Source of the DNA: a virus
Virus record (IMG/VR): IMGVR_UViG_3300044609_000988
Span: 1 to 64,000 of that record
Length of the DNA stretch: 64,000 nt
Direction: 5' to 3' (one strand)
In this document: positions 17,305 through 62,897 of the stretch, piece after piece
How the letters are laid out: each line of letters opens with the position of its first letter
Numbering within the stretch: position 1 is the first letter of the stretch
Program-made: the position numbers and the translations under genes
The notes under the pieces: generated by a model
What the model was told of the DNA's origin: nothing
Databases searched by the model: none
What the model saw: the letters and a program-made list of their open reading frames with translations, nothing else

Positions 17305-17697
17305 GTGGCTAAGACTCTTACCTTTAAAGATCTGAATATCACATTTAAGCCTCATCCTATCACTGGCGATCTAATCGTCACCAAGGATGAGGCTGCCATC
17401 AAGCAGTCTGTTGTTAACCTATTGTTAACCAACAGAGGTGAGAGATTTTTCAACGCAAATTTAGGTTCTTCTATTTCTTCATTATTGTTCGAACCTCTTG
17501 ATTATGGTACTGCTGGTATGGTATCAGCAGAGATTGAAAATACTCTGAAAGCATATGAGCCAAGAATTAAAGTTCTTGCAGTGAATACAGTACCTGATTT
17601 TGATCAAAATGGTTTTGATATTGAATTAATCTTCGAAATTATTGGTAGAGAAGACGTTCCACTTAATGTAGCATTTTTCCTAGAGAGAACACGATAA
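17305..17697 (+). CDS. gp25: Baseplate wedge protein gp25
   Basis: A 130-residue protein (T4 gp25 is 132) with the family pattern: an N-terminal KPHPITGDLIVTKDEAAIKQ segment, LLTNRGERFFNANLGSSISS (the hallmark TNxGERFF-like motif), and EIENTLKAYEPRIKV. gp25-like proteins share a fold with T6SS TssE and link gp6 dimers to the sheath start in the baseplate wedge. Translation begins at GTG 17305 since no ATG is available. gp6 follows directly. Confidence 0.92.
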   Translation: MAKTLTFKDLNITFKPHPITGDLIVTKDEAAIKQSVVNLLLTNRGERFFNANLGSSISSLLFEPLDYGTAGMVSAEIENTLKAYEPRIKVLAVNTVPDFDQNGFDIELIFEIIGREDVPLNVAFFLERTR

Positions 17698-19497: not shown

Positions 19498-19502
19498 TCT
19501 AG

Positions 19503-29009: not shown

Positions 29010-29013
29010 TCTG

Positions 29014-29027
29014 TATAAATATAAATA
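29014..29027 (+). promoter_or_regulatory. Double late-promoter motif before gp8
   Basis: Two overlapping TATAAATA boxes (29014-29021 and 29020-29027) lie 37-50 bases before gp8. This is the strongest late-type sequence in the window and divides the long tail operon. Confidence 0.7.
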
Positions 29028-29063
29028 CATCAGACATAAAAATTCACTAGAGAGTTCAAGTAA

Positions 29064-39029: not shown

Positions 39030-39235
39030 TGGACAATCGTTATTTAAAAGTTGAAGGCCACGAAAATTTGTATAGAGATTCATCAACGGGGGCTATTGTC
39101 AATACAGACAAACCAGCTCCCAAAAATTTTTCTAAACAATTTACAAATGCTATTGATGACATAAATAGTTTGAAGGAAGAAATATCTGAAATCAAAAGAC
39201 TTCTTAGAGAGATAGTAAGAAATGGCAGTTCTTAG
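39029..39235 (+). CDS. Small coiled-coil protein between giant structural genes
   Basis: A 68-residue protein from ATG 39029, overlapping the previous stop as TGATG. The N-terminal part (LYRDSSTGAIVNTD) is followed by a C-terminal coiled coil (INSLKEEISEIKRLLREIV). Overlap with the next giant gene by 14 bases implies tight coupling. Small proteins of this layout beside DUF4815 genes are common in cyanophages; an assembly or tip role is inference. Confidence 0.6.
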   Translation: MDNRYLKVEGHENLYRDSSTGAIVNTDKPAPKNFSKQFTNAIDDINSLKEEISEIKRLLREIVRNGSS

Positions 39236-44647: not shown

Positions 44648-47600
44648 ATGAGTTTTCAATTCAATTCTGATAAAGAAATAATTCAGGCAGTTAATCCAAA
44701 ACTCGTTGGTAGTAACGAACTTACTATTAGATCTGGAGAAGGCGCTTCTGAAAAAGAAATTTTTAGAGCACAATTAGATTCTCAAACTGGTTTACCAAGA
44801 GTTGGTATTAACAGAACTGGCAGACGAGTAGAAAGTATTAGGATTAATGAAGGTCAGGGAGGTACTGGTTACACACTAACTCCAAACGTAACTCTAACTG
44901 CACCAGATTTACCAAATGGTATTCAGGCTCTAGCTTCTGCTGTTGTTTTCAATGGCTCTGTTGTTGCTATTATTGTTGATAATTCTGGCGATGGATATTC
45001 GTTAGCTCCTGAAGTAACTATTACTGGAGGAAATGGTTCTGGCGCTGCTGCTACTGCTGTTTTGGACACAGTAGATTTTGAACTCGATATCAACGGTGCT
45101 ATCCGAACATCAACCTCAATTATTTCTGATACTGCTCGCATCTTAAACCTTGATATTGATAATTTTGTTACTCCCGATGCTAGTTTTAGAGCACCAAATT
45201 TAAAAACTTGGGCTAACGGCACTGGTACTCAATTTGTACCAAACGTAGTATTACAAAAAGATTCTTATAGATATGCTGCGGATAATATCTATCAGGCATT
45301 AAACACAGGAACAACAGGCTCTTCATTACCCATCCACAAAGATGGTATCGCTCTAAGTGGAGATGTTCAATTAAAGCATGTTGGTTATAGAGTAAATGAT
45401 GTAAATGCTCCGCACTATTTACAAACTGGAGAATCTGGTTTATTTCCAAGATCAATTACTCCTCTTCTTGGTGATAAATCAGATAAAATTGCTACCACAG
45501 AATATGTTCTGAACCTAGCTACTAATGACGTAGGTGGTCGTGTTTATGTTTCTGCCCAAATTGGTAATGATCAAAATGATGGTCGTTCTGCTGTTGCTCC
45601 AGTAAGAACTATTAAACGTGCTTGCCAAATTGCTTCGGCAACAGTAGGTGTTAAAGAAACTGTTATTATTTCGGGTGGCGACTATGTAGAAGATAACCCA
45701 ATTTCAATTCCAGCAGATTGTTCAATTGTTGGTGACAACTTACGTCTAGTAATTGTCAGACCAGCAAATCCCCGTAAACACATGTTTAAATTTGGGGATA
45801 AAAACTATCTAACAGGTCTTGTTTTCAGAGATCAAATTGATAGTAATGGGGATCCTGTGGCAACATGGGATTACGCCATGGTCTTTGATGACAAGCAAAG
45901 AATTTATTATGATTCTACTACTGGAGGAGATTTCGGAAGAAGCTTTCCGATTGGTCATCAAATTTTTGGACCACCTAGAATTAGAGTATCATTCCAAAAC
46001 CACACTGGCGGAACAGAATTAATTGCTGGGTTGAGCGTAAGTGGTATTAACACTGGCGCTTCGGGTTTAATTGCTGGCGTCACTTTTGAATCTACAACTG
46101 GCCCCGATGCTTATGTAAATGGTACAATTGATGTTGATATTACCAGTGGTTCGTTCAACAACGGAGAAACATTTGAATATACAGTAGGTATTGCTCCAGC
46201 ACAGCAAACATATGATTTCATTTCTACTGATATTACATCAATTAGAGCTGAAGGAGAAGTTGTATCTAATAACAAAGATTTAGCAATATCTTTACCAATT
46301 GTACGTATTGATTTTTCTCAACAAGGGACCGCAGAAACTTCCGAAGGGGGTTTCCAGTATGATCCAGCAGAGGATAATTCGGGTGGTATTGTTTTCTACA
46401 CCAACGCTCTAGTTGGTAGACAAAATACTCATGACTTTAAGGAAGGACAGCAAATTGAAATTCAAGGTCTCCCTATATCAGGACCAGATCTTTCTTATTT
46501 AAATGGCAAGCAAAGAATTTATAAAATTCTTCGTGATGCTGATGGAAGATCTAGAAGATTTGTTATTCAAAATAAACAAGATGAAAGTTTAACAGATTCT
46601 AATTTTATTCCAAATAATGCTTCTGTAAAATCATATGATTATTCTGTAACAGTATCTCTATTAAACTCACCAAACAAATTTGGGGTTGCTGAGTCAGTTT
46701 CCAGAAGATTTCAGGATGCTTGTATCTTAATTCGTAATAATATTCCTTTTATTGTTGATGAAGCTTATCTACAAATTAAAGATGAATTTGAGTATCTTGC
46801 TGTCCCAAATGAACAAAAATGTCGTAGAGATATTGGTCATTTTCTAAATGCTCTCATTCGTGACTTAGAATATGGAAGCAATTACCACACAATTGAAGCA
46901 GCTCAAACATATATTCAAAATGCTCAAATTGGATATTTGGGTAATGAAATTACCGAATCAGTAAGAGCATACGAGATCGCTAAAGATCTTGCTATCTTAG
47001 CGATGAGAAGATGGAGAACTGGCAATGGTCAACTTGCCAATTCATTATACACTCCACTATATTCATCGATTACTAGATATTTTGACCCAACTGTTATTCA
47101 AGACACTCTGGGAGCGGCCTGTGAGGACGTAGCAAGCGCCATCAATACCCTTGGGTATCTTTTTGTTGCAGTAATCACAAACAACGCTGTAGACCGTTAT
47201 CTAGACGCCTCAGAGCTGATTGCTCGTAATACTGATTTGATTGCCGAAGAAGCGGTAGGTTTTGTGCGAGCACAATATCCTGATCTTAATTTAAACCAAG
47301 ATAACTCAGAATCAAACAGATTTGTAGATGCAGCAAATTTAATTTTTGCTAACAAAGATGAAATTCAAGATAAAGCATTAGCACAAATTTCTGTAGAGTA
47401 TAGCGAAGCATCTTGGGGTACTGATTGGGTTATTCCTGGTGATACAATTAACCAAGACAATAAGAGAAACTTAGATTCTTATAGATTAATTCAAAAAAAT
47501 AGAACAGAAATTGTTAATAGTTCTTGGACACAATTAATTGCTCAATATCCAGGAGTAAGTACAACAGAAACTAAGTGCAAGAGAGACATTGGCTACTTTG

Positions 47601-50600
47601 TAGATGCTGTTTCGTTAGACGTATTTTTAGGTGGCAATAAGTATTCCAGAAAGTTTACTTTACAATATTTTAATAACGGAGCACCAATTTCAAATGGACT
47701 AGTTGGTGAGGAAACACAATCAGTATTTGCTTTTAATCAAGCCAGAGACTTGATGAAGTCGGCTATCACTAATCAGCTGACCTATAAAGATTTAACTATC
47801 ACAGCAGATTCTGCCACTGGTTCAAATACCTCCACATCATCTTGTTCTGACGTACAAACAAATATTACTAACCTTGTTTCCATAGTTACTGCAGTAATTT
47901 CTGCTGGAAATACAACTTCTCTGCCAGCAGAAAATGCTGGAACCATTTACAGCGGTTCATCGAAGTGCAGAAGAGATATTGGTTATTTTGCAACTGCTAT
48001 TGCAAACGATTTGGTCAGTGGAGGCAATTCAAATATTATCGAAGTTGCGAAATCATATTTCAATAACGGAACTCCAATTAGTAACGGTCTAGTGGGAGAA
48101 GAAGCTCAATCAGTTATTGCTTTCAACAAAGCAAAAGATCTAATGAAGTTGGCTATCACTAACCAACTTTACGCAAAAGATTTGACACTAACAGCTGATC
48201 CTCTTACCAATAACAACCAAGATCCAAATTCTTGTGCTAATGTCAAAACTGCTATTGATACCCTTGCCGCTATTGCTGTTACTTCTATTACCAATGGCAA
48301 TTTAACTTCTTTACCAACAGTAAACACTGGAAATACTGATATATGTAAGAGAGATATCAAGTATATTCTTTCTGCGGTAAGAAGAGATTTAACTCTTGGT
48401 GGAAATGCTGGTATGCTTACCGCTGCCGAAGCATACTTTACTGGAGCACAATTAACTGGAATACCAGAAGAAGAACTATCACCAACTCGTTATGCTTTTG
48501 AAAAAGTAAGAGATTTAGCCATTCTGGCAATGAGAAATTGGAAGACTGGTAACGGTACTGGAACTGTTTATATTCCAACATACACAATTAAGCAGCAATA
48601 TATTGATTCAACTATTGCTATTGATCCAGGAACTCCTATTTGTGCGAATGTTGCTTCATCTATTACAACATCATTTGCTTTACTGGATGATGTTCTTTCT
48701 GGGGAAATTCTTCCTGGTGCTACAGAAAAAACATACGGCACTTTATATGATACAACAAATATAGTATCTTTCCCAGACAATACTTTATACGATGCTAATA
48801 ATAAGGTAATTACTCCAAGAGCAACTTGGGATGATCTTCCTTATATTGAAGCTTCTCCATACACGCAAAACGCCTCAGTTATTTCATTCTTAGGCGGTGG
48901 TGGTGCTCTCATTGATGGTAGTAAAGTATCCCAGCCAAACTGCCCATTCCCAGGATTAGAATTAGACGGTTCGGCATCATTCCCAAATCAGGGTAAATCA
49001 ATGGTGGCGGCAGCGTTCACTATTGTGTCCTTCAATGGTGTTGGATATAAAATTATCAATGATGGATATGTACAGTTGGTTTCTGTATTCGTTCTATTTG
49101 CTGCTGATGGTGTACTTGCTGAGTCTGGTGGTTACGCTTCTATTACCAACTCAGCCACTAACTTCGGCATCTATGCTTTAAGAGCAAGAGGATACAATAA
49201 TTTTGCGTATAGTTTTGACGTTGGTACAATCACCAATGTATCCACAACCCCAACTGGAAGAACAATCTTTACAGTGGATGGTTTAGGTAGAGAACCACTA
49301 GAACATTATATTGTAAAAATTGATGGTTACAGCAACTTAAATCCAGAAATTGAATACTTTATCGATACTGTTTCTGGAGTTACAGTTGGTCCCCCATTCT
49401 CTGCTCAAATTACTTTAGAAAGTGGTTCTGGAGATCCAGCAGAATTTATTCGTGATTCCGACAATGTAGCTGTTAGCACAGGAATTGGGGAATTTTCTGG
49501 AAAAACTATAAGATTACACAGACCATCTATCGTTAACTCTTCATCGCACACATGGGAATTTGCTGGTTCTGGCACTAACTACAATGCTCTACCAGAAAAC
49601 GGTGGTGTTAAGATTGATGCTAACGAGCAAGTATCTCAGGATTATGGACGTGTTTACTGCTCGGGCACAGATGAACTTGGTGACTTTAAAGTAGGTACTT
49701 TTGCTAAGATCGAAAACAGAACTGGTAACATTACCTTTACAGGTACAGTTACAATTTCGGAAGTTGAATTCCTTAAATTGAAAGGTGGCGACGTTGTTGT
49801 TACTGGTTTTGATAACTCAAATACACTTGGCGGAGCTAATACAACCGACTCCAAACTACCAACTCAAAAGGCAGTTAGAGATTATATTACTAACAACCTC
49901 GGTCCTTATATTAATAAACCATATTCCACAAATGCTGTTCCTAGAGCACTTGTAGAATTAACAGATTCTGGTAAAATTTCTATTGATCAGATTCCTCCAC
50001 TACGTCCATTTAACGTATATACAATAGAGGATCAAGCAGAAAGACTTTCGATCGAAGGTGCTCTTGCTGGTGATATTGCTATTCAACAAGACACTGGCAC
50101 TTCATATATTTTAAATAATGATAATGATAGCCTATTTGTTTCCTTTGCTGTAGATACTGACTTAGTATTTACAATTGGAAATATTTTTACAGGTGATATT
50201 TCTGGCGGCCAAATTCAAGCTACAGAGTATCGCACTGGAGTAGTTTATCAAATTAGTCTTTCTAATGCTGGTTCTGGATATACAATTGCTCCAACAGTAA
50301 CTATTTCTGGAGGCAATCCTGGTGCTGGGGCTGTTCAAGCAAGTGCTATTGCTACAATTGCCAATGGTCAAGTTGTGACCGTACAAATTATAGAGTTCAA
50401 TGGGTTTGTTGGGGGCAAGGGATACACAACACCACCAACAATTACATTCTCTTCTCCTGGTGGTGCTGGAATTACTGCGACAGGTTCTTGCTTAATTGAA
50501 AGTAGATTATATGGCGATATCGTCAATAATGTTAAAATAACAGATACCGATACAATTCAGTCTAGCAATTCTCCCACAGATACAGTAAACATAAACAGAT

Positions 50601-53600
50601 CTGTAAATACCTCTGCTAATAATATTAATAATTGGGTATCACTTTCAACTACACAAATTTCTGCTACTGATATTACTTCTGGCGTTATTTCTACATCAAG
50701 ACTTGCTAATAACTCAGATGCTGCTAACTCATTTACTTTCTTAAGAGGAGATCAAAGCTATGCTCCTGTTCTTCAGTCGATTAAAGGAGCAGAAGTAAGA
50801 TACTTTGCTAAGCTAATTCAGCAAGCAAATACTGGATCTTCTCAGTTAGTATTCAGCACAAATTCCAATACATTACTTGGTCACTCAGTTATTGATAATG
50901 TATCTGGTATTGCTCCAAATACCAATATAACTGGCGTATTGAGTGCTGCTGGTATTACTACTGTATCGATCAATAATCCATTATCTCAAAATATTCCTTC
51001 AGGAACAATTATAGAATTTTTGAGAGGCGCTTCTCCACTTACTTTTGAATCATCTTTAACACAAGGTAATTTTGTTGATAACATTGTTGTTTCTAATGGA
51101 GGTTCTGGTTATACCAGTGGTCAATATTTTGATGTTCCATTAACAGGCGGTTCTGGAACAGGACTACGTTGTAATATTATTGTTTCTGGAGGTTCTGTTA
51201 CAGAAGTAACAACCACTAATAGTGGTCAAAATTACACAGGCGACTTTAATATCACTTCTTCTCCTGCTGCTATTGGTCCAGGATCTGGATTAGTTTTAGC
51301 AGCTAAAATTAGCACTGTTAATCGTCAATATGCCAATACTTCAATAGACATTCAAAGAGTTAGTGATCTAACAATTTCGGCAGACCCATTCGGTACGGTT
51401 GGTGTTTCTAGATTCCTTAAGTCACAATTTATTATTGGTCAAGCTGGAAACGGTTCCATTCAATTAAAAACTGGTCCTGATAGTGGTCTTGATGCTGACT
51501 TACTTGATGGTGCTCAGGGTGCTTTCTATCTAAATGCCAGTAACCTAAACTCTGGTACTGTATCAACAGATCGTCTATCTGGAACATACAACATAAGTAT
51601 TTCTGGACAATCTGGTAATACATTACGTCTAATTTCATCAACTTCAAACCCAACTTCAAACCCATCACCTAGCAATTTCGCTACTGGTGTTATCACTGAT
51701 ACAAAAAATAATAGCTCCGATGGTTTGAATGATGGTGGCTCAAGACACCTAGTAATGTCCATCAGAAATGGTGGTGCTGGATTTGACGCTACCTTCGGTG
51801 GTGTTAGACAACTAGCATTTACTGATAATGATAATATGTGGCTTCGTGGTTCTGGCACGGGGGTAAGTGAATTTGGCTCATGGGGTAAAGTTTGGACTTC
51901 ACTTAATGACGGTCCAGGAACTGATATGGATGCCGATAAACTTGATAACCGTCAAGGTACATGGTATCAAAATGCTTTAAATATTAACTTCGGAACTCTC
52001 AGTGATAATAGATTACCAACATATCAAACCACAAAGAGTTTCAACAGTTCCATTAAACTTTTAACAACTACAAATAATCCAAGATATAAAATTTATGTCA
52101 GCGGTTTATTATTAACAACTGCCCCATTCCTTGCTGGTTTAGAAGTTAATCTGTATAATGCCAATGCTCAAGGAACAGGAACAATTTTAATTACAAATAT
52201 TGAGACATTTGATGATGCTAATGATAACAATAATGATTACACTATCATTACTGGTTCTTTACAAACAGGCACATTTATCGGAGCCCTAACAATTGGTACA
52301 GCAAGTAACAGAATTACATTCCAAGATTTCAGTCTTGATGCAACTGGCACTTTCCAAACCGCTTCGCTTGATAGTGATGGTGGCATTGCTAGATTAAAAC
52401 TGGGTAGAAAAGATGGCACTGCTTCAGCTCCAGCTATTTACTTCAATTCTAGCCAATTAGCAGCTACAAATTATAATGCTGCTATTGTATCTTCTGGAGG
52501 AAATGCTACTGATGGTAGTGGTACATTAAATGTACTTGTAGCTAGTGCTAATGGATTAACAGTTAATAACAACACTGTTTGGAACGCTGGAAATGTAACG
52601 TTCAATAGCACTAATGTTTTAAGCACTGCAGTTATTCGTGATGCGTCTGGCAACTTTGCTGCTGGTACTATTACCGCTGCTTTAACTGGCGCTGCTTCGG
52701 CAAACGTCTTAAAGGCTGGCGATACCATGACTGGTTCGCTAACAATTAGCGGAGCAAGTAGTAATTTAAGTGTCGGCGGAACTCTTGGGGTTACAGGTAA
52801 TACTACTTTATCTGGTAGCTTGACGGTTGACACAAATACTTTATTTGTTGACTCTACGAATAATAGGGTTGGTATTGGAACAAATTCTCCTGTTGGTCCA
52901 TTATCACTTGATGTTAATGGAAAAGGAAGATTTATTGGCAATGCAGAAAATGGCAATGGTGGATATGCTTTATCTGTATGGGCTACAGGAGCATCTCAAA
53001 ATACAGGTATTTCGTTCTACCCAACATTTGATAATTTCCCTTCTGATACTGGCCCAAGAAGAGCAGTTGATTTAATTGCTGGATTTGATGGTGGAACATG
53101 GGAAACACAATATTTTGCCATTCACGTTGGTGGTTCTGGTGGAAATGATGTTCAAAATATCACAACAGAAAGATTAAGAATTATAAACACAGGTGAAGTT
53201 GGTATTGGAAGAACACCAGCAACTGGTTATTCATTAGATATTAATGGAAAGGCAAGAGTATCTACTGGATTTGAAATTGATAATAGTCTCGATAATTCAG
53301 GTGCTCCATTATTCTTCTTTGGTTCTTCGTCAGCAAGAAACTTTAGAATTGGTAACCAGTTACTTGTTAATGATGTATTTGAAATCACGCCATCAACTAC
53401 AGGTGGTGGTGCTACATTCACAACGCCAGCATTTTCTATTCGTGGTGCTGATGGTAATGTTGCTATTGGTTCAACTACATTTGCTAATCCAGGAAATACT
53501 ATTCAATATAAATTAAATGTTGCTGGTAATATTAACTTCACTGGAACTCTTTATCAAAATAATGAAGCTTTTGTAACTTCTAGATGGACTGCTTCATCGA

Positions 53601-53881
53601 ATGGAACTGATATTCATAGATTATCTAAGGTCGGAATTAATAAAGCAGATCCAGCATATACGTTAGATGTTGGCGGAGATGTTAATTTAACTGGCAAAAT
53701 ATATGTTTCTGGTAATGCTCAGTGGATAGATACTAAAGGTATTATTAGAACTTCGTCAAATTTAATTAGCGAAGATATAACTATTCCTACTAATACTAAT
53801 GCTGTAAGCACTGGACCACTAGTAATAAATACAAATAACATCATCACGATTTCTGAAGGTGCTGTTTGGACAATCGTGTAA
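44648..53881 (+). CDS. Giant tail-fibre-like virion protein
   Basis: A 3077-residue protein. In order: G-x-G-Y beta repeats (about 60-145); a parallel beta-helix, pectate-lyase-like part (about 290-400; GRVYVSAQIGNDQNDGRSAV, TIKRACQIAS); an unusual helical region (about 700-1400) with four C(R/K)RDI repeats at about 724, 976, 1106 and 1233; a beta part; a KLPTQKAVRDYI element near 1734; paired fibre repeats (LDADLLDGAQGAFY; DADKLDNRQGTWY); and C-terminal shaft repeats (LTVDTNTLFVD...NRVGIGTNSP) near 2694-2760. It is the probable long fibre or its scaffold. Confidence 0.8.
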   Translation: MSFQFNSDKEIIQAVNPKLVGSNELTIRSGEGASEKEIFRAQLDSQTGLPRVGINRTGRRVESIRINEGQGGTGYTLTPNVTLTAPDLPNGIQALASAVVFNGSVVAIIVDNSGDGYSLAPEVTITGGNGSGAAATAVLDTVDFELDINGAIRTSTSIISDTARILNLDIDNFVTPDASFRAPNLKTWANGTGTQFVPNVVLQKDSYRYAADNIYQALNTGTTGSSLPIHKDGIALSGDVQLKHVGYRVNDVNAPHYLQTGESGLFPRSITPLLGDKSDKIATTEYVLNLATNDVGGRVYVSAQIGNDQNDGRSAVAPVRTIKRACQIASATVGVKETVIISGGDYVEDNPISIPADCSIVGDNLRLVIVRPANPRKHMFKFGDKNYLTGLVFRDQIDSNGDPVATWDYAMVFDDKQRIYYDSTTGGDFGRSFPIGHQIFGPPRIRVSFQNHTGGTELIAGLSVSGINTGASGLIAGVTFESTTGPDAYVNGTIDVDITSGSFNNGETFEYTVGIAPAQQTYDFISTDITSIRAEGEVVSNNKDLAISLPIVRIDFSQQGTAETSEGGFQYDPAEDNSGGIVFYTNALVGRQNTHDFKEGQQIEIQGLPISGPDLSYLNGKQRIYKILRDADGRSRRFVIQNKQDESLTDSNFIPNNASVKSYDYSVTVSLLNSPNKFGVAESVSRRFQDACILIRNNIPFIVDEAYLQIKDEFEYLAVPNEQKCRRDIGHFLNALIRDLEYGSNYHTIEAAQTYIQNAQIGYLGNEITESVRAYEIAKDLAILAMRRWRTGNGQLANSLYTPLYSSITRYFDPTVIQDTLGAACEDVASAINTLGYLFVAVITNNAVDRYLDASELIARNTDLIAEEAVGFVRAQYPDLNLNQDNSESNRFVDAANLIFANKDEIQDKALAQISVEYSEASWGTDWVIPGDTINQDNKRNLDSYRLIQKNRTEIVNSSWTQLIAQYPGVSTTETKCKRDIGYFVDAVSLDVFLGGNKYSRKFTLQYFNNGAPISNGLVGEETQSVFAFNQARDLMKSAITNQLTYKDLTITADSATGSNTSTSSCSDVQTNITNLVSIVTAVISAGNTTSLPAENAGTIYSGSSKCRRDIGYFATAIANDLVSGGNSNIIEVAKSYFNNGTPISNGLVGEEAQSVIAFNKAKDLMKLAITNQLYAKDLTLTADPLTNNNQDPNSCANVKTAIDTLAAIAVTSITNGNLTSLPTVNTGNTDICKRDIKYILSAVRRDLTLGGNAGMLTAAEAYFTGAQLTGIPEEELSPTRYAFEKVRDLAILAMRNWKTGNGTGTVYIPTYTIKQQYIDSTIAIDPGTPICANVASSITTSFALLDDVLSGEILPGATEKTYGTLYDTTNIVSFPDNTLYDANNKVITPRATWDDLPYIEASPYTQNASVISFLGGGGALIDGSKVSQPNCPFPGLELDGSASFPNQGKSMVAAAFTIVSFNGVGYKIINDGYVQLVSVFVLFAADGVLAESGGYASITNSATNFGIYALRARGYNNFAYSFDVGTITNVSTTPTGRTIFTVDGLGREPLEHYIVKIDGYSNLNPEIEYFIDTVSGVTVGPPFSAQITLESGSGDPAEFIRDSDNVAVSTGIGEFSGKTIRLHRPSIVNSSSHTWEFAGSGTNYNALPENGGVKIDANEQVSQDYGRVYCSGTDELGDFKVGTFAKIENRTGNITFTGTVTISEVEFLKLKGGDVVVTGFDNSNTLGGANTTDSKLPTQKAVRDYITNNLGPYINKPYSTNAVPRALVELTDSGKISIDQIPPLRPFNVYTIEDQAERLSIEGALAGDIAIQQDTGTSYILNNDNDSLFVSFAVDTDLVFTIGNIFTGDISGGQIQATEYRTGVVYQISLSNAGSGYTIAPTVTISGGNPGAGAVQASAIATIANGQVVTVQIIEFNGFVGGKGYTTPPTITFSSPGGAGITATGSCLIESRLYGDIVNNVKITDTDTIQSSNSPTDTVNINRSVNTSANNINNWVSLSTTQISATDITSGVISTSRLANNSDAANSFTFLRGDQSYAPVLQSIKGAEVRYFAKLIQQANTGSSQLVFSTNSNTLLGHSVIDNVSGIAPNTNITGVLSAAGITTVSINNPLSQNIPSGTIIEFLRGASPLTFESSLTQGNFVDNIVVSNGGSGYTSGQYFDVPLTGGSGTGLRCNIIVSGGSVTEVTTTNSGQNYTGDFNITSSPAAIGPGSGLVLAAKISTVNRQYANTSIDIQRVSDLTISADPFGTVGVSRFLKSQFIIGQAGNGSIQLKTGPDSGLDADLLDGAQGAFYLNASNLNSGTVSTDRLSGTYNISISGQSGNTLRLISSTSNPTSNPSPSNFATGVITDTKNNSSDGLNDGGSRHLVMSIRNGGAGFDATFGGVRQLAFTDNDNMWLRGSGTGVSEFGSWGKVWTSLNDGPGTDMDADKLDNRQGTWYQNALNINFGTLSDNRLPTYQTTKSFNSSIKLLTTTNNPRYKIYVSGLLLTTAPFLAGLEVNLYNANAQGTGTILITNIETFDDANDNNNDYTIITGSLQTGTFIGALTIGTASNRITFQDFSLDATGTFQTASLDSDGGIARLKLGRKDGTASAPAIYFNSSQLAATNYNAAIVSSGGNATDGSGTLNVLVASANGLTVNNNTVWNAGNVTFNSTNVLSTAVIRDASGNFAAGTITAALTGAASANVLKAGDTMTGSLTISGASSNLSVGGTLGVTGNTTLSGSLTVDTNTLFVDSTNNRVGIGTNSPVGPLSLDVNGKGRFIGNAENGNGGYALSVWATGASQNTGISFYPTFDNFPSDTGPRRAVDLIAGFDGGTWETQYFAIHVGGSGGNDVQNITTERLRIINTGEVGIGRTPATGYSLDINGKARVSTGFEIDNSLDNSGAPLFFFGSSSARNFRIGNQLLVNDVFEITPSTTGGGATFTTPAFSIRGADGNVAIGSTTFANPGNTIQYKLNVAGNINFTGTLYQNNEAFVTSRWTASSNGTDIHRLSKVGINKADPAYTLDVGGDVNLTGKIYVSGNAQWIDTKGIIRTSSNLISEDITIPTNTNAVSTGPLVINTNNIITISEGAVWTIV

Positions 53882-53895
53882 TAAAAAATAATTAA

Positions 53896-54777
53896 ATGGA
53901 TCCAATTTCTTCAAAATTAACATCTAATAACATTAATATCTCCAGGGGATTAATTTTACCTGTTTACACCAATGACCCTGGGGATGGCAACCCAGGGGAG
54001 ATTATTTATGTTAATGGACAATTAAAATATTATAGAGAAGGAAAATGGTTATTCATAACTGATGGAAAGAAAGATGGATTGACAGAAGCCACTGCTGTTG
54101 ACAAATCAACAGATATTCTTGTAGCAAATCCATCTGCTCCCAGTGGTTGGTATTGGATAAAAACAAATAATGTAGCTAGACAATATTGGGTAGATAATAC
54201 CTATGATGGTGGTGGATGGGTTTTGGTTGGCAGTCACCCAATTAATGTTTCAATTCAAGCTTTAACATATGCTCAAGCGGCAGAATCTTATTCAGGAAAT
54301 GCTTCTTCTACATATGGAACAGGAGATCCAAAATCATATTCTGTTTGGGTTGGATTAAATGGATGGGATGCTATTGCTACAGCAAACGCTGCTGGCAGAA
54401 ATTTTGTTTATTACACCGCTAATTCTCAAGTTTCTTTGGGATCTACTGCTTCGCATGTTAGAAGAAGTAGATGGAAGTGGAGCGGATGGAATTCTTTATA
54501 TTCTTGGAATAATGCCAACACTTTAATTAATGAAGTTGGTGCTTCTACTCCAGGTTTATGGTATTATCATATGTCATATAATTTCACTACATATGACAGA
54601 GACCAAGATGCTTATAGTGCTAATTGTGCTACTCTTTATAATAATGCTCCTTGGTGGTATGGAGCTTGTTGGGATGGCAATTTTTGGGGAGGAAATGGAA
54701 GTGGATATGCTAACGCTGCTTTCTGGACAGGTTCTGGAGGAGATTATTACAACTATGGAGCAATGTACGTAAAATGA
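53896..54777 (+). CDS. Fibre-tip adhesin with fibrinogen-like C-terminal domain (copy 1)
   Basis: A 293-residue protein. Residues 5-58 are the shared cassette (SKLTSNNINISRGLILPVY, then GEIIYVNGQLKYYREGKW). From about 80 it follows the fibrinogen C-terminal pattern: GWYWIKTNN, QYWVDNTYDGGGWVLVGS, and near the end DAYSANCATLYNNAPWWYGA then CWDGNFWGG and GAMYVK. The paired Cys flanking the WWY motif is typical of that lectin fold, which binds acetylated sugars in animal ficolins. Here it probably recognises host surface glycans. Copies 2 and 3 lie downstream. Confidence 0.75.
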   Translation: MDPISSKLTSNNINISRGLILPVYTNDPGDGNPGEIIYVNGQLKYYREGKWLFITDGKKDGLTEATAVDKSTDILVANPSAPSGWYWIKTNNVARQYWVDNTYDGGGWVLVGSHPINVSIQALTYAQAAESYSGNASSTYGTGDPKSYSVWVGLNGWDAIATANAAGRNFVYYTANSQVSLGSTASHVRRSRWKWSGWNSLYSWNNANTLINEVGASTPGLWYYHMSYNFTTYDRDQDAYSANCATLYNNAPWWYGACWDGNFWGGNGSGYANAAFWTGSGGDYYNYGAMYVK

Positions 54778-55019
54778 AAAAACCCTGTAATAGACTTAAA
54801 ATAGCAAAAAACAAAATTGATGTTGATTCTGAAGGAATGTTTACTTATATCTTTGAATGGTATAATAATGAAAAATTAATGATACAAGAACCATACAAAA
54901 TTCAATCAGATAATTATGGATTACCAATTGAAAATTATAATATTAATGAAATGATCGAACATAAACAATATTGTTGTTTAGAAATAGATTCAAATACTCT
55001 AAAAATAGAAGAAATTTAA
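54774..55019 (+). CDS. Small hypothetical protein between adhesin genes
   Basis: An 81-residue protein starting MKKPCNRLKIAKNKIDVDSE, joined to the first adhesin by an ATGA overlap; the third copy of the adhesin lacks such a partner. A possible assembly helper for the adhesin, by analogy with small fibre chaperones encoded directly after adhesins; this is inference only. Very AT-rich. Confidence 0.5.
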   Translation: MKKPCNRLKIAKNKIDVDSEGMFTYIFEWYNNEKLMIQEPYKIQSDNYGLPIENYNINEMIEHKQYCCLEIDSNTLKIEEI

Positions 55020-55023
55020 TCCA

Positions 55024-55947
55024 ATGGCAGCCAATTCAAAATTAACATCCAACAACATTAATATCACCAAGGGATTAATTTTACCTGTATATGACGTAGA
55101 TCCTGGTGATGGCAATGCGGGAGAGATTGCTTATGTTAATGGACAATTAAAATATTATGTCGGTGGAAAATGGACATTCATAACAGAAGGCAAAGATGGG
55201 TCTACTGCTGATAGAGCAGCTGAGTCAGCATCGGCAATTCTCGCAATAAATCCCTCTGCTTCTGATGGCGTTTATTGGATTAATTTACCTACGGCTGGAC
55301 CAACACAAGTCTATTGTATTATGAATAATTCATATAATGGAGGTGGATGGATGATGGCAATGAAAGCAACTAGAGGAACAACTTTCAATTTCAACGCAAA
55401 TTATTGGACAACAACAAATACATTAAATCCAACTCAAACAAATATTAATGATGGGGATGCAAAATTTGAAACCTTCAACAGATTTGAAGCAAAAGATATT
55501 TTAGCAGTTTGGCCAGATTTAACAGCAAACTCAGGTTGTTTTAATGTTTCTAGGGGGCATATTTGGTTGGAAAATAGTTTTTGGCAGGGAGGAACTAAAA
55601 TTACTTTAACAAATCTGTTTAATACAGCTAATGAATATTTTATTCGGGATGCTAATAATTTCTGTGGCATCAACCAATTTTCTCGCCAAACTGATGTTAG
55701 ATTTTATGGATTTAATTATTCAAATGATCAAAATTTAGCTAGGACTAGGTGGGGATTTGGTTGGAATGAAAATGGAGGTGGCCTTTGGCCGAATGGAAAT
55801 CAAGGAAGTGATGATGTATCGGGTGGTATTGGTATGACAGGAACTCAACAAGGACAGGTCAATTATTCTGCTGGAGATTTTATTGGTTGCTGTCAAAGTG
55901 TCACGGGATTTAATAGATCAGCAAGAGTAGAGATTTATGTCAGATAA
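55024..55947 (+). CDS. Fibre-tip adhesin with fibrinogen-like domain (copy 2)
   Basis: A 307-residue protein. The N-terminal cassette (SKLTSNNINITKGLILPVYD, then GEIAYVNGQLKYYVGGKWTF) is nearly the same as in copies 1 and 3. GVYWINLPTAGPTQVYCIMN and YNGGGWMMAMKA (about 83-115) are clear fibrinogen-like entry motifs; the middle and end are different from copy 1 (FIRDANNFCGINQFSRQTDV, CCQSVTGFNRSARVEIYVR). The shared head with variable tip implies interchangeable receptor binding. Confidence 0.75.
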   Translation: MAANSKLTSNNINITKGLILPVYDVDPGDGNAGEIAYVNGQLKYYVGGKWTFITEGKDGSTADRAAESASAILAINPSASDGVYWINLPTAGPTQVYCIMNNSYNGGGWMMAMKATRGTTFNFNANYWTTTNTLNPTQTNINDGDAKFETFNRFEAKDILAVWPDLTANSGCFNVSRGHIWLENSFWQGGTKITLTNLFNTANEYFIRDANNFCGINQFSRQTDVRFYGFNYSNDQNLARTRWGFGWNENGGGLWPNGNQGSDDVSGGIGMTGTQQGQVNYSAGDFIGCCQSVTGFNRSARVEIYVR

Positions 55948-56002
55948 TATGAATCTTTCAAATTACAAAATATCGTTGATTAATTAAAAATTAATAATTT
56001 TA

Positions 56003-56848
56003 ATGGATAATTCAAAATTAACATCTAACAACATTAATATCACCAAGGGATTAATTTTACCTGTGTATGACGTAGATCCTGGTGACGGTACTATGGGGGA
56101 AATTGTTTATGTCAATGGACAATTAAAATATTATGTGGGTGGAAAATGGACATTCATAACTGATGGAAAAATAGGAACATCAGCTAGTTCACCTGCATTA
56201 AACGCAGCTCAAATTAGAGCTGCTGGGATAAGTGCTGATGGTGATTACTGGTATCAACCAACAGGGGCATCGTCACCGATTCAGTTGTATACAAATTTTT
56301 CAAATGCTCCAGCAGGAAAAGGTTATGTTCTCGTTGCTAGAGGAAGAGAATCTACTGATTGGTGGAATACTAACGGACAAAATACTTCCGCTTTAACATC
56401 ATCTTCATTAGATACAAATACACCAATTGCTGTTCTTCCAAACACATTTGTGAATGGTTTAATTAATAATCAGTGGAATGGAATGAGATTCATAACAAAT
56501 AGAAGAAATGGAGCAGATTCTTGGTTATTTGTTGGAACCCAAAGCACTACTTTTAGTTGGACTTATTTTCAGCAATCTGGATCTAGCGTTTCAGCTACTG
56601 CTCAACAATTTAATGGAGTATTTTTATCTGGTGGAGCACGAATAACATATGGATCTGGAATATATTGGACAGATACTTTAAATTATGGAAATGGTAATAA
56701 CTGCGATAGAACATTTACTTGGTCATGGGGAGGTCATGGATCTTGGCAAGGGTGGTCTGGTGGATCTTCATGTACTCCAACTGGATCTTTCCAACTTGGA
56801 GGTGAAGGTCACGCACTTCAATTAGTAAATTGCTACGTAGAGTGCTAA
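56003..56848 (+). CDS. Fibre-tip adhesin (copy 3)
   Basis: A 281-residue protein with the same N-terminal cassette (SKLTSNNINITKGLILPVYD; GEIVYVNGQLKYYVGGKWTF). The entry segment is divergent (ISADGDYWYQPTGASSPIQL, KGYVLVARGRESTDWW) and the tip is Trp/Gly/Ser-rich (FTWSWGGHGSWQGWSGGSSC), ending in NCYVEC. It probably shares the fold of copies 1 and 2 but with a third specificity. Confidence 0.7.
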   Translation: MDNSKLTSNNINITKGLILPVYDVDPGDGTMGEIVYVNGQLKYYVGGKWTFITDGKIGTSASSPALNAAQIRAAGISADGDYWYQPTGASSPIQLYTNFSNAPAGKGYVLVARGRESTDWWNTNGQNTSALTSSSLDTNTPIAVLPNTFVNGLINNQWNGMRFITNRRNGADSWLFVGTQSTTFSWTYFQQSGSSVSATAQQFNGVFLSGGARITYGSGIYWTDTLNYGNGNNCDRTFTWSWGGHGSWQGWSGGSSCTPTGSFQLGGEGHALQLVNCYVEC

Positions 56849-56877: not shown

Positions 56878-56901
56878 TTTTAACGGAATAGAGTGTCATT
56901 T

Positions 56902-57957
56902 ATGTCTACATTAAATGTCGGTATTTTAAATGCCAGTAACAGAATAAAACTTCCTATACTCACAACTACCCAAAGAAATTCTTTGGCGCTTGAAGTGGGA
57001 TTGATGATTTTTAATTCTACTGCCAGTGAAGTTCAATTTTATAATGGAACTGAGTGGATAAATCCAGGCAAAGGTAAACTTAGTGCTACTGGAGGAGTTA
57101 TTACTACAGCTGGATTATATAAAGTTCACACATTTACAGGTAATGGGTCTTTTGTACTTACGGGAAGTGGGTTGGTAGAATATTTAATCGTTGCTGGTGG
57201 TGGCGGCGGCGGTTCTGATATGGGTGGCGGCGGTGGAGCTGGTGGAGTAATTATTGGTTCTACAACTTTATCATCTGGAACATATCCAATAACAGTTGGT
57301 GGAGGAGGCAGTGGTGCTCCTGCAGGAGTAGGACAAGTTAGAGGAACTAACGGAAATCCCTCAACTTTTAATAATTTAACAGCTATTGGTGGTGGTGGCG
57401 GTGCTAGTTGCCATGATAGATCAACAAGCCCAGCAGGAAATGGTGGATCAGGAGGAGGAGCATCTGGCGGAGGAACTCTTCCTAGTGGAGGATCTGGAGG
57501 TGGTGGATACGGGGGAGGAATTAGAGGATTAGGAACTCCTGGTCAAGGAAATGATGGAGGGTCAGGAATATATGCTTGGTATCCTGGCGGCGGTGGTGGT
57601 GCTGGAGCTGCTGGAACAAACAACCCAGCAACTGGTGGCGTTGGAGTGCAAAGTTCTATTCTAGGTGTTTCTTACTTCTGGGGCGGCGGCGGCGGCGGAT
57701 CTGGATATTCTGCAGGCGGAGGAAATGGTGGTAATGGTGGCGGCGGCGGTGGAGCCGTAAACGTTACTTCTGGCGGTTCTGGATTAAATAATGGATCCCC
57801 TGGTGGTGGAGGAAGTCCAAATTCACAAACCAATAGGCCTGGAGGTAATGGTGGCGCCAACACTGGTGGCGGCGGTGGTGGTGGTAGTCACTACAGTGCT
57901 AATAATTTTGGCGGTACTGGTGGTTCTGGAATAGTTGTAGTAAGATACTTAGCATAA
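56902..57957 (+). CDS. Glycine-rich fibre adhesin (copy 1)
   Basis: A 351-residue protein from ATG 56902; I reject the in-frame GTG at 56893 because the paralogue downstream starts at the equivalent MSxLNVGI. The N-terminal 70 residues contain LPILTTTQRNSLALEVGLMI and FNSTASEVQFYNGTEWI; then ITTAGLYKVHTFTGNGSFVL leads into glycine-rich arrays (about 95-345), with runs such as GGGGGGSDMGGGGGAGGVII. Such arrays form polyglycine II lattices in gp38-type receptor-binding adhesins. Host recognition is the likely role. Confidence 0.75.
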   Translation: MSTLNVGILNASNRIKLPILTTTQRNSLALEVGLMIFNSTASEVQFYNGTEWINPGKGKLSATGGVITTAGLYKVHTFTGNGSFVLTGSGLVEYLIVAGGGGGGSDMGGGGGAGGVIIGSTTLSSGTYPITVGGGGSGAPAGVGQVRGTNGNPSTFNNLTAIGGGGGASCHDRSTSPAGNGGSGGGASGGGTLPSGGSGGGGYGGGIRGLGTPGQGNDGGSGIYAWYPGGGGGAGAAGTNNPATGGVGVQSSILGVSYFWGGGGGGSGYSAGGGNGGNGGGGGGAVNVTSGGSGLNNGSPGGGGSPNSQTNRPGGNGGANTGGGGGGGSHYSANNFGGTGGSGIVVVRYLA

Positions 57958-57996: not shown

Positions 57997-59079
57997 ATGT
58001 CTAGATTAAACGTAGGTATTATAGAAGCTGTATCTAAATTTAAAATCCCTACTTTTACTAAAGCACAAAGAGATGCTATGGTGCCAGAAACTGGCATGAT
58101 GATATATAATTCAACTGATCAAATACTTGAAATTTATTTCGGAAAATGGGTAGGTGCTGGAGAAAAAGTATCAGCTTCAGGATCTTCATTCACTGCAACT
58201 GGAGGTACTGTAACAACAGCTGGAGGATATAAAATACATACTTTTTTGGCAAATGATACTTTTGCTATATCTACAGGTACAACTTCAATTGAATATTTAA
58301 TCGTTGCTGGTGGCGGTGGCGGTGGTATGGATATGGGTGGTGGCGGTGGAGCTGGCGGAGTAATTATTGGCTCCACTTCTTTAGGTCCTGGTTCATATCC
58401 AGTAACAGTGGGTGCGGGAGGAAATGGTGCTCCAGCTGCTAGCACAAACGGACAACCAGGCGGTCACCAATATACTATTTCAGCTACCAATGGAATTAAT
58501 TCAACTTTTAACAATTTAACCGCTGTTGGTGGTGGATTTGGTGGTAGTTCTTATTATGGATATCTCCCAAATTATGGCAACGGCAACACTGGTGGTTCTG
58601 GTGGAGGAAATTCTGGCTACAGTGATGGTAATATACGTGGTCCCAAAGCAGGAACTCTTGGTCAAGGAAATAATGGAGGGCAAGGCGGAGGACAATATTA
58701 TTCTGGCGGTGGTGGTGGTGCTGGCGCTGCTGGATCTAATTCCCCAAGCCAAGCAAACGGTGGTATTGGAGTACAAAGTTCAATAACTGGCGTTAGTTAT
58801 TATTGGGGCGGCGGTGGCGGAGGAGCCGCTTATTCTTTAGGATCTGGTGGATCTGGTGGAAATGGTGGTGGCGGTGGTGGCGCTGGCAATAGTCCTGGAA
58901 TAGGTGGGGCTGGATTAAATTCTGGATCTAACGGTGGGCCATCAAATAGTAACCAACCAGGGGGAAATGCTGGCACAAACACTGGTGGCGGTGGTGGTGG
59001 CAGCGCTCATTACAACTCCAACAATAAAGGTGGTAATGGTGGTTCTGGAATAGTTGTAATTAGATACTTATCTACATAA
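57997..59079 (+). CDS. Glycine-rich fibre adhesin (copy 2)
   Basis: A 360-residue paralogue of the previous gene with the same plan: MSRLNVGIIEAVSKFKIPTF, MIYNSTDQILEIYFGKWVG, TTAGGYKIHTFLANDTFAIS, then glycine arrays (IEYLIVAGGGGGGMDMGGGG, GVSYYWGGGGGGAAYSLGSG). Loops between glycine runs differ most from copy 1 (HQYTISATNGINSTFNN; SSYYGYLPNYGNGN), as expected if they contact the receptor. Confidence 0.75.
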   Translation: MSRLNVGIIEAVSKFKIPTFTKAQRDAMVPETGMMIYNSTDQILEIYFGKWVGAGEKVSASGSSFTATGGTVTTAGGYKIHTFLANDTFAISTGTTSIEYLIVAGGGGGGMDMGGGGGAGGVIIGSTSLGPGSYPVTVGAGGNGAPAASTNGQPGGHQYTISATNGINSTFNNLTAVGGGFGGSSYYGYLPNYGNGNTGGSGGGNSGYSDGNIRGPKAGTLGQGNNGGQGGGQYYSGGGGGAGAAGSNSPSQANGGIGVQSSITGVSYYWGGGGGGAAYSLGSGGSGGNGGGGGGAGNSPGIGGAGLNSGSNGGPSNSNQPGGNAGTNTGGGGGGSAHYNSNNKGGNGGSGIVVIRYLST

Positions 59080-59961: not shown

Positions 59962-60792
59962 ATGGCACAGCCATCATCAAGACAGGAATTGATTGACTAC
60001 TGTAAGAGACAGTTGGGTGCTCCTGTGCTGCAAATCAATATTGCAGATTCTCAGGTTGATGATATCATCGATACTGCTATACAGTATTATCAAGAATATC
60101 ATTATGATGGCATTGAAAAGATGTATCTAAAGCATGAATTTACTGAAGAAGATGTACTAAGATTTACCGAGACAGATGAGATTACTTCTACAGATGATCC
60201 AGACGGATCTGTATGGAAAAATAGAAAAAATTTCATAGAAGTTCCTGATCATGTAATTGGTATTGAAAAAGTATTTGGAGTTACTTCCAATCTTTCTTCG
60301 AATGAAATGTGGGGATTGAGTAACCAGTATTTCCTACTTGATATTTTTTCTTTCTCATCTGGTTATACTTTTGGCAACTTTGATATGTCATATTACTATA
60401 TGATCAAGCAGTATTTTGAAACTCTTGACATGGTAGTTAACGTTGGTGGATTAGTACAATACCGTTTCAACAAACGTCAAGATAGATTATACCTTGATAT
60501 TGACAGAACAAGAATTAAGGAAGGTAGATATTTAGTTATTGAATGCTACAGAGCATTAAACCCAGCAGAATGGAATCAAATCTGGAATGATAGTTTTATC
60601 AAACGTTATGTCACTGCTTTGATGAAACGCCAGTGGGGAATGAATTTAATTAAATATAACAATGTTCAGTTGCCTGGTGGCATTACATTAAATGGTCGTC
60701 AAATCTGGGAGGATGGCGATGCTGAAGTCAAAGATCTGGAATCAAGAATATTTACAGATTACTCCCTACCTCCAATGGATATGATCGGATAA
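59962..60792 (+). CDS. gp13: Neck protein gp13
   Basis: A 276-residue protein (T4 gp13 is 309). Landmarks: SSRQELIDYCKRQLGAPVLQ at the N-terminus, VDDIIDTAIQYYQEYHYDG, and VECYRALNPAEWNQIW-like IECYRALNPAEWNQIWND near the end, plus KRYVTALMKRQWGMNLIKY. gp13 and gp14 form the neck that closes the filled head and joins the tail. Directly followed by gp14 (1 base). Confidence 0.92.
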   Translation: MAQPSSRQELIDYCKRQLGAPVLQINIADSQVDDIIDTAIQYYQEYHYDGIEKMYLKHEFTEEDVLRFTETDEITSTDDPDGSVWKNRKNFIEVPDHVIGIEKVFGVTSNLSSNEMWGLSNQYFLLDIFSFSSGYTFGNFDMSYYYMIKQYFETLDMVVNVGGLVQYRFNKRQDRLYLDIDRTRIKEGRYLVIECYRALNPAEWNQIWNDSFIKRYVTALMKRQWGMNLIKYNNVQLPGGITLNGRQIWEDGDAEVKDLESRIFTDYSLPPMDMIG

Positions 60793-60793
60793 G

Positions 60794-61666
60794 ATGCCTA
60801 CCAGTCCTTATTTTCCAAGCTACTACGATGGTTATCAAGGTGAACAAGACCTAGTTCAGGATCTTGTTGACGAGCAGATTAAGCTGTTCGGTTCTGATAT
60901 CTATTATCTACCAAGAACTCTTCTTAAAGATAATACTTTAGATGATTTAATTTACTCTAAATTTGAAGAGCAATTTCAAATTGAAATGCTATTGCAAAAT
61001 GTGAGTGGATTTGGTGAGTCAGAATTTATTAGTAAATTTGGTCTTAAGATAACACAAGAAATTAGATTTAATGTTTCTTCTCGGAGATGGAGACAAGAAG
61101 GTACTGCATTTGGTTTGGATGCCAGACCTTTGGAAGGAGATCTATTATTCTTTCCATTGACCAAAGACTTGTATGAAATTAAATTTGTGCAAGTAGAGGA
61201 AGTATTTTTCCAGTTTGGTCAATTGCCATTCTATTCTATTACTGCAGAAATTTATGAGATGGGCAATGAATCTATCGATACTGGAGTTGCTGATATTGAT
61301 CTAATCGAAAGCATTCTATCTCCAGCTATTGACATTGTTATGCTGGAAGATAGTGGTACAGAAAATTATATTGTTGGGGAAATTGTAACTGGATCTGTAT
61401 CCGACGTTACTGCAAAAGTTTCAAAATGGAATTCCCAAACAAGAACACTTACTGTTATTACTAGGACAGGAACGTTTGTTGAAGAAGAAAATATTGTTGG
61501 GGAAGATAGTGATGCTTCGTGGACAGTAGAATCATTCTCTACATTAGAGGACCCAAATAACAATTACGAAGAAAATAAATATATTGAAGACACTGCCGAT
61601 GATCTTTTAGATTTTTCTGAGGGTAATCCTTTCGGTGAGTATGGTAATTTTATGGATAGCTTCTAA
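60794..61666 (+). CDS. gp14: Neck protein gp14
   Basis: A 290-residue protein (T4 gp14 is 256). The opening QDLVDEQIKLFGSDIYYLPR and LEGDLLFFPLTKDLYEIKFV, plus VFFQFGQLPFYSITAEIYEM, fit the family. The C-terminal 100 residues form a separate acidic beta part (ENYIVGEIVTGSVSDVTAKV). It acts with gp13 at the head-tail joint. The stop overlaps the gp15 start by one base (TAATG). Confidence 0.9.
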   Translation: MPTSPYFPSYYDGYQGEQDLVQDLVDEQIKLFGSDIYYLPRTLLKDNTLDDLIYSKFEEQFQIEMLLQNVSGFGESEFISKFGLKITQEIRFNVSSRRWRQEGTAFGLDARPLEGDLLFFPLTKDLYEIKFVQVEEVFFQFGQLPFYSITAEIYEMGNESIDTGVADIDLIESILSPAIDIVMLEDSGTENYIVGEIVTGSVSDVTAKVSKWNSQTRTLTVITRTGTFVEEENIVGEDSDASWTVESFSTLEDPNNNYEENKYIEDTADDLLDFSEGNPFGEYGNFMDSF

Positions 61667-62478
61667 TGTTAGGTACACATTTTTATAACGAGGCAATTAA
61701 AAAAACAGTTGTCGGATTCGGAACTCTTTTCAATAATTTAGAAGTTCAGCGTAAAGATCCCCAGACAGGGGAGATGCTTGAAGTTCAAAAGGTTCCTATT
61801 GGATATGGTCCAAAGGATAAGTTTGTTCGTAGAATTGAGGAGAACCCCGATCCTACTCCAGGTGCTCCTTATGAGTATATGAGGATTCCTCGTATCTATT
61901 TTGAAATGACTGGTATTAATTATGATGGCGGACGTAAAGTAAGTCCTATACAAAAATACAAAAATATTATTTCTGATAATGGAAACGAGGTGAGAGTTCA
62001 GTATGTTCCAGTACCTTATAACATTAGCTTTGAGCTTGGCGTTTTAGCAAAGTCACAAGATGATGGACTACAGATTGTAGAACAGATTTTACCATACTTC
62101 CAACCAAATTTCAACGTCACTATCAATTTTATTCCCGAGATGGATGAAAAGAAAGATGTTGCTATTGTATTGAATAGTGTTGATCTAGATGATTCGTGGG
62201 ATGGTGATTTTAAAAGTAGGAGACAAATTATTTGGACTTTTCAGTTCACTGCTAAGTCATATATTTACGGTCCCTTCAATCAGGCTGACATCATTCGTAA
62301 GGCAATTATTTACGAAACTGTTGGTGATCTTGATCAAAACAAACGTAATGCTAGATTTACCTACACACCAGAAGCACTTGAAGATAAAAATGATGATGGT
62401 GTTATCAATGCTTTAGATGATGCTTTATTAACAGCAGATGATGACTTTGGATTTAATGGAGAGATTGATCTACTATGA
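61666..62478 (+). CDS. gp15: Tail terminator / sheath stabiliser gp15
   Basis: A 270-residue protein (T4 gp15 is 272). It shares the T4 hallmark QIVEQILPYFQPNFNVTINF and SRRQIIWTFQFTAKSYIYGP; the start MLGTHFYNEAIKKTVVGFGT matches the family opening. gp15 hexamers cap the tail tube and sheath and meet gp13/gp14. The extreme C-terminus has EDKNDDGVINALDDALL (about 243-259), a dockerin-like calcium-binding loop pattern. gp16 overlaps by ATGA. Confidence 0.92.
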   Translation: MLGTHFYNEAIKKTVVGFGTLFNNLEVQRKDPQTGEMLEVQKVPIGYGPKDKFVRRIEENPDPTPGAPYEYMRIPRIYFEMTGINYDGGRKVSPIQKYKNIISDNGNEVRVQYVPVPYNISFELGVLAKSQDDGLQIVEQILPYFQPNFNVTINFIPEMDEKKDVAIVLNSVDLDDSWDGDFKSRRQIIWTFQFTAKSYIYGPFNQADIIRKAIIYETVGDLDQNKRNARFTYTPEALEDKNDDGVINALDDALLTADDDFGFNGEIDLL

Positions 62479-62897
62479 ACGAATTTGAAAAGAATATGGA
62501 ACAAATATTTGACATTGAAGTTACATCAGAAGAAACAGAAATTATACAAGAAAAGCCAACTGCCCCAGTTAAAAAAGAAGATCCAGAAAAAGATTACGAA
62601 TATACCAGGGGTCAGCTCTACGACCTCATAGAGAAGGGCCAGGAGGCCGTACAAGGGGCCTTAGAGGTTGCTCAGGAGTCTGGGCACCCCCGAGCATTTG
62701 AAGTCGCTGTGAACGCTATGAAGCAGGTCTCAGACATGACTGATAAATTAATTGATCTTCAGAAGAAGATGAAGGATCTTGACGCTCCTATTAAAGGTAA
62801 AGGACCTACCACAGTTAACAACACAATGTTTGTTGGTAGCACCGCCGACCTGCAGAAAATGCTCAAGGATATGGGCAAAAACATGGCAGAAGAATAA
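62475..62897 (+). CDS. gp16: Small terminase subunit gp16
   Basis: A 140-residue protein (T4 gp16 is 164). An acidic N-terminus is followed by a helical core (YTRGQLYDLIEKGQEAVQGA; GHPRAFEVAVNAMKQVSDMT; DKLIDLQKKMKDLD), then the C-terminal VNNTMFVGSTADLQKMLKDM that parallels T4 IQNATVFMGSPTEL. It recognises concatemeric DNA and regulates gp17 during packaging. Bases 62605-62735 are GC-rich compared with the flanks. Confidence 0.9.
   Translation: MNEFEKNMEQIFDIEVTSEETEIIQEKPTAPVKKEDPEKDYEYTRGQLYDLIEKGQEAVQGALEVAQESGHPRAFEVAVNAMKQVSDMTDKLIDLQKKMKDLDAPIKGKGPTTVNNTMFVGSTADLQKMLKDMGKNMAEE

Follow-up and report, generated by a model that had tools for sequence, protein, structure and literature searches.

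Three consecutive genes of one virus begin with a similar short module and end in different C-terminal domains. This raises the question of what these domains are, and whether the similar 5′ DNA is a means of exchanging them. The initial annotation of the window (the whole stretch of 64,000 nucleotides analysed here, which is part of an 81-kb IMG/VR virus record) described three adhesin genes that share one 5′ cassette, called the foot below, and carry different fibrinogen-like tips. It took them for a built-in system of host-range diversification. The observation is real and is partly confirmed, but it was overstated. The three genes are found at the places given for them, as intact open reading frames on the same strand (Table 1), while an 81-codon gene and two further foot-bearing genes, 4 and 5, had gone unmentioned.

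Homologues of T4 gp25, gp6, and gp8 lie upstream of the adhesin run, at 17305–30893. Between these baseplate genes and the gp13- to gp16-like genes there are very large fibre-like genes, followed by five genes of one plan with interspersed small open reading frames. The adhesin run thus occupies the T4 gp12/wac position. With its counterpart in Synechococcus myophages such as S-PM2, the gp6 homologue shares 66% identity. The gene order and this identity indicate that the phage is Kyanoviridae-like (T4-like), and its host is probably a freshwater cyanobacterium. A syntenic relative, locus L020, has 73% DNA identity to the 3′ half of the giant fibre-like gene. Promoter-like sites show no excess over shuffled sequences.

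Table 1. Positions of the adhesin genes, their foot repeats, and the flanking genes in the window.
Feature	Position	Strand	Length	Description
Giant fibre-like gene	44648..53881	+	3077 aa	Open reading frame directly upstream of gene 1
Gene 1	53896..54777	+	293 aa	Type-A foot (codons 1–58) and fibrinogen C-terminal tip (residues ~73–293)
Foot repeat, copy 1	53908..54069	+	162 nt	80% (ungapped) or 82.1% (gapped) identity to copy 2
81-aa ORF	54774..55019	+	81 aa	Overlaps the stop of gene 1 (ATGA); weak match to phrog_14793 (E 0.0018), of unknown function
Gene 2	55024..55947	+	307 aa	Type-A foot and phrog_1325 tip; predicted intelectin/fibrinogen-like fold
Foot repeat, copy 2	55033..55194	+	162 nt	Reference copy
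Gene 3	56003..56848	+	281 aa	Type-A foot, fibrinogen-like entry subdomain (residues ~60–155), and orphan remainder
Foot repeat, copy 3	56009..56170	+	162 nt	~91% identity to copy 2
Gene 4	56893..57957	+	354 aa as listed	Type-B foot and glycine-rich tip; PF21722 (E 2.5e-13)
Gene 5	57997..59079	+	360 aa	Type-B foot and glycine-rich tip like that of gene 4; PF21722 (E 3e-15)
gp13-, gp14-, gp15-, and gp16-like genes	59962..62897	+		Head-tail adaptor, head closure, sheath stabilizer, and small terminase; PHROG matches phrog_211, 460, 227, and 445

The feet of genes 1–3 are termed type A. Identity between these genes stops at codons 55–58 in every pair, which gives a foot of ~55 codons. DNA identity is 90.7% between copies 2 and 3, and 80–82% between copy 1 and either of them, and the similarity to copy 2 is far above chance (E = 2e-61 and 7e-41). 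The longest exact runs shared among the feet are 38, 28, and 21 nt. The repeat coordinates given earlier are correct to a few bases, but the wording "nearly identical" is too strong for feet with 80–91% identity and a longest exact run of 38 nt. The foot proteins are 77–91% identical across the three genes, with dS values of 0.36–0.50 and dN values of 0.04–0.17. The substantial synonymous divergence means that much of the likeness of the feet is that of a conserved protein, and the excess of dS over dN indicates that this protein is under constraint.

Among ~115 fetched loci, 14 loci including the window have adjacent genes that are alike at their N-termini alone. No other 5′ repeat in these loci equals the type-A feet in identity over this length, the others having ~70–75% over >100 nt. 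The pattern is thus common, and the window is an extreme case of it. Type-A feet align with type-B and other cyanophage feet (hhalign E 8e-8), and by this profile comparison the feet are one superfamily. A search for other genomes with type-A feet gave the same strain and L020 only. A foot-like motif, IPAGDSNNRGVAAQGSIRYSTTLSSFEGYNGTNWTSLGG, is also present inside a 1619-residue structural protein (39222–44081), at residues ~1320–1371. The foot may be a small beta-rich docking or trimerisation module. Its docking role is a guess, since the motif occurs in the large structural protein and many relatives of the tips are footless.

The tip of gene 1 matches PF00147 (E 1.3e-5; 25.6 bits against a cutoff of 22; residues 80–277) and NF040941 (E 1e-9). 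Among PDB chains, its family profile matches those of angiopoietin-like proteins, tenascin, and ficolin, with a best E of 1.2e-8. The sequence comprises the entry GGGW motif, an acidic D-x-D, and an NCA...WWY...C block (TTYDRDQDAYSANCATLYNNAPWWYGACW). This acidic block is conserved in the family and is aligned to ANGPTL2/6 and others. These matches make tip 1 a genuine fibrinogen C-terminal domain, in line with its first description. Cyanophage annotations already include fibrinogen-like domains, as in Q58LR8 of P-SSM4.

The tip of gene 2 belongs to phrog_1325 (E 1.3e-44), a family for which this comparison found 69 distinct proteins, from many aquatic phages. It also matches NF040941, the YCDxxxxGGGW fibrinogen-like domain, with 40.1 bits against a cutoff of 30, whereas PF00147 gives no match at E up to 1. 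Copy 2 therefore keeps the entry motif and has a different conserved end, as had been noticed. Mean column identity is 50% over 31 relatives. The AlphaFold2 model of the tip is good, with a pLDDT of 86.8 and a pTM of 0.81. In a Foldseek comparison with solved structures, the best matches of this model are the intelectins of Xenopus, lamprey, and human, followed by ficolins. The intelectin matches have an E of 2.7e-7 and a probability of 1.0, with a TM of ~0.5 and an rmsd of 6.5 over the full-length model. A sequence profile likewise places intelectins at the top, weakly, with an E of 0.005–0.02 for the entry part only, and the sequence identity of tip 2 to intelectins and ficolins is 10–17%. 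The predicted intelectin-like resemblance is the least expected and newest element of the locus, and the literature search found no paper combining intelectin, bacteriophage, and tail fibre. Tentatively, phrog_1325 may be a viral family of intelectin-like lectins, a portable tip moved between receptor-binding proteins.

Gene 3 has no family match in Pfam, PHROG, or NCBIfam. The first ~95 residues of its tip align with a cyanophage fibrinogen-like family, A8 (hhalign E 1.6e-8), which is itself alignable to the family of gene 1 (E 6e-8). On these alignments, tip 3 is homologous to the fibrinogen-like superfamily by its entry subdomain only, which agrees with its earlier description as the more divergent copy. 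Relatives sought in viral and bacterial genomes were limited to the same strain and weak entry-domain matches. The AlphaFold2 model of gene 3 is poor, with a pLDDT of 42.6.

Genes 4 and 5 show the reverse of the pattern in genes 1–3. The start of gene 4 is probably the in-frame ATG at 56902. The DNA match between the two genes begins at codons 63–65 and has 67% identity over 928 nt. The dN value is 0.46 for the feet and 0.28 for the tips, so the feet are more diverged and the tips more alike. The 81-aa open reading frame between genes 1 and 2 is possibly a dedicated assembly factor. Small open reading frames are also present 3′ of several homologues of tip 1 (loci L008, L009, L013, L014, and L015).

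Comparison with relatives shows how feet and tips are combined elsewhere. L020 has the gene-2 tip on a type-B foot, with 83% protein and 79% DNA identity. The DNA match to gene 2 begins at position 55192 of the window, which is the foot end, and the foot beneath the L020 tip has no detectable DNA similarity to the type-A foot. The type-A foot of L020, in turn, bears another tip, which matches concanavalin/LamG below the cutoff. Tip 2 is nearer to the tips of other phages (83% for L020, 64% for S-H9-2) than to tips 1 and 3. The foot of gene 2, in contrast, most resembles those of genes 1 and 3, and blastp aligns gene 2 with the tip-2 gene of L020 over the tip alone. These comparisons support separate histories of foot and tip. 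In the 69 proteins that contain it, tip 2 follows short feet, a foot with a glycine-rich part, a foot with a LamG-like part, or ~20 short footless leaders. A count of the independent foot types was dropped, as single-linkage clustering of the N-termini of tip-2 proteins merged 43 of 47 into one group.

Exchange of tips at the foot end, as expected in the initial annotation, is seen in L020 and in further pairs of loci. In these pairs, DNA identity is 83–90% across the upstream gene and then the foot as far as codon 39–51, the tip is unalignable, and the match resumes at the gene end. L050 has 83–86% identity to L060, L063, and L077 through codons 47–51, then a dissimilar tip, and again 82–84% near the gene end. 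The tip is replaced after codon 39 between L038 and L040. In L038 (3096–12578), many tandem genes of ~230–240 aa have repeated N- and C-terminal modules. The clean replacement pairs belong to other, more distant phages. L020 is the only near relative with a type-A foot, and exchange of these particular feet is therefore seen once. In P-RSM4 and S-MS29 (L105 3959–6594 and L104 2680–5315), three genes in a row carry similar fibrinogen-like tips on different feet, and all of these genes are annotated as hypothetical. A conserved N-terminal module with an exchangeable C-terminal module is thus found in L020, in the phrog_1325 proteins, in P-RSM4 and S-MS29, and in the L050 and L038 pairs. In Cyanophage P-TIM40 (L005 9950–13046), two annotated tryptophan halogenases adjoin the tip cluster, and their 5′ ends share a short DNA repeat with 86% identity over 50 nt.

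The initial annotation would have the 5′ cassettes act as homology arms, by which tips are swapped between copies or between co-infecting phages while the foot is kept. Among the fetched loci, the type-A feet do surpass all other 5′ repeats of comparable length in similarity, and tip replacement beside a conserved foot does occur in other phage pairs. Nevertheless, this explanation is quite improbable. The longest exact run and the dS values given above speak against it, and the mismatches between the feet lack clear clustering (P of the longest run 0.04–0.23). The mismatch positions thus give no clear sign of recent gene conversion between the feet. In the L020 swap, the two feet concerned share no detectable DNA similarity. 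Within a single genome, recombination between direct repeats in tandem would mostly remove genes, which also counts against such arms. The locus is unchanged in three assemblies, with no cluster variants having crossovers at the repeat, even though so few assemblies are a weak test, and only three N calls occur, in the 81-aa open reading frame. The longest sister contig has two substitutions in the giant gene, at 50143 and 50153, and a few N calls; the other sister assembly is identical over its covered part, from 55806 on. Inverted repeats of at least 30 nt are absent at 50–62 kb. What stands of the earlier interpretation is that tips of the fibrinogen type share a foot and lie at the position of adsorption genes, and that feet and tips are exchanged among natural relatives. 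These comparisons support tip exchange over evolutionary time, and not a system dedicated to it and driven by identity of the foot DNA.

The locus is probably best explained as a multi-gene receptor-binding cassette, in which feet and lectin-like tips are reassorted, between genes and between phages, by rare recombination at or near their junction. This explanation builds on the open reading frames and their homologies, the context of the locus, the fold predicted for tip 2, and the incongruence of feet and tips. Each gene would encode a lectin-like tip behind a small, beta-rich foot at the N-terminus. The type-A genes would carry three variants of the fibrinogen/intelectin superfamily, namely canonical fibrinogen, intelectin-like, and a divergent third, while genes 4 and 5 would add type-B feet with glycine-rich tips to the same cassette. 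In the virion, the foot would most likely dock the protein to the tail apparatus or trimerise it, and the putative lectin tips would most likely bind host surface glycans, so that several specificities could be present on a single virion. For the likeness of the feet, selection on their protein would suffice, and homogenising DNA exchange would be unneeded. Tandem duplication of one ancestral gene without recombination, followed by fast divergence of the tips under host selection with the feet constrained, is very improbable. All three tips do share a fibrinogen-like entry subdomain and stand in tandem, as duplication would have it. However, tip 2 is nearer to the tips of other phages, while its foot is nearest to the feet of genes 1 and 3, and this incongruence makes recombination necessary and simple duplication with divergence insufficient. 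It is also unlikely that the products are other virion or host-directed proteins, such as whisker-like sensors or secreted lectins, that use a common structural module. In favour of this reading, the position is also that of T4 wac, the function is unannotated in the relatives, and the strong conservation of tip 2 is not what a hypervariable receptor binder would show. Against it, receptor binding is in keeping with the lectin-like folds and with the replacement of cassettes, and the variable host-recognition islands of marine phages show an enrichment of similar C1q, lectin, and fibrinogen-like genes (PMC3909814).

Modular receptor-binding proteins that are mixed and matched are already known in phages. 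The metaviromic islands of marine phages contain fibrinogen-like, C1q, and lectin domains, and a tail fibre in them has a conserved N-terminus and a variable C-terminus (PMC3909814). The genes of these islands were inferred from read recruitment, whereas in the window a single genome has several tips on copies of the same foot. T7/K1F and Klebsiella phages have a conserved N-terminal anchor, a horizontally exchanged C-terminal binding domain, and several receptor-binding proteins per virion (PMC6872550). Their tips are tail fibres, tailspikes, or depolymerases, with docking structurally supported in type examples, whereas the window has lectin-like tips and a putative docking role. Among the paralogues of the mosaic adhesive trimers of Bdellovibrio, the N-termini are closely alike and the C-terminal tips are exchanged, some of them with lectin folds like those of animals; these trimers differ in being bacterial and in forming long trimeric fibres, and the parts of that source consulted report no fibrinogen or intelectin tip (PMC10769870). 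The closest likeness in gene order is the tail-fibre cluster of P-RSM4, S-MS29, S-H9-2, and S-MbCM7 (T4-GC 349, 612, and 613; phrog_1325), which also comprises tandem genes of ~300 aa, with foot and fibrinogen-like tip, 3′ of a large fibre gene. In P-RSM4 and S-MS29 the tips are alike and the feet differ, whereas in the window the feet are alike and the tips differ. Animal intelectins (X-type lectins) and ficolins are the best matches of the tip 2 model, and the fibrinogen motif of tip 1 also occurs in ficolin and angiopoietin-like proteins. New are the case of three tips on one foot, with its mirror images, and the model-based assignment of phrog_1325 as intelectin-like.

These host-recognition genes of cyanophages are "hypothetical" in almost every record examined, and the comparison supplies a domain grammar of foot and tip for them. 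With fibrinogen-like and intelectin-like tips recognised and the exchange junctions placed, differences in cyanophage host range become testable. If the intelectin-like assignment holds, tip 2 would be a viral counterpart of an animal innate-immune lectin fold, and phages would use the fold by which vertebrates read microbial sugars.
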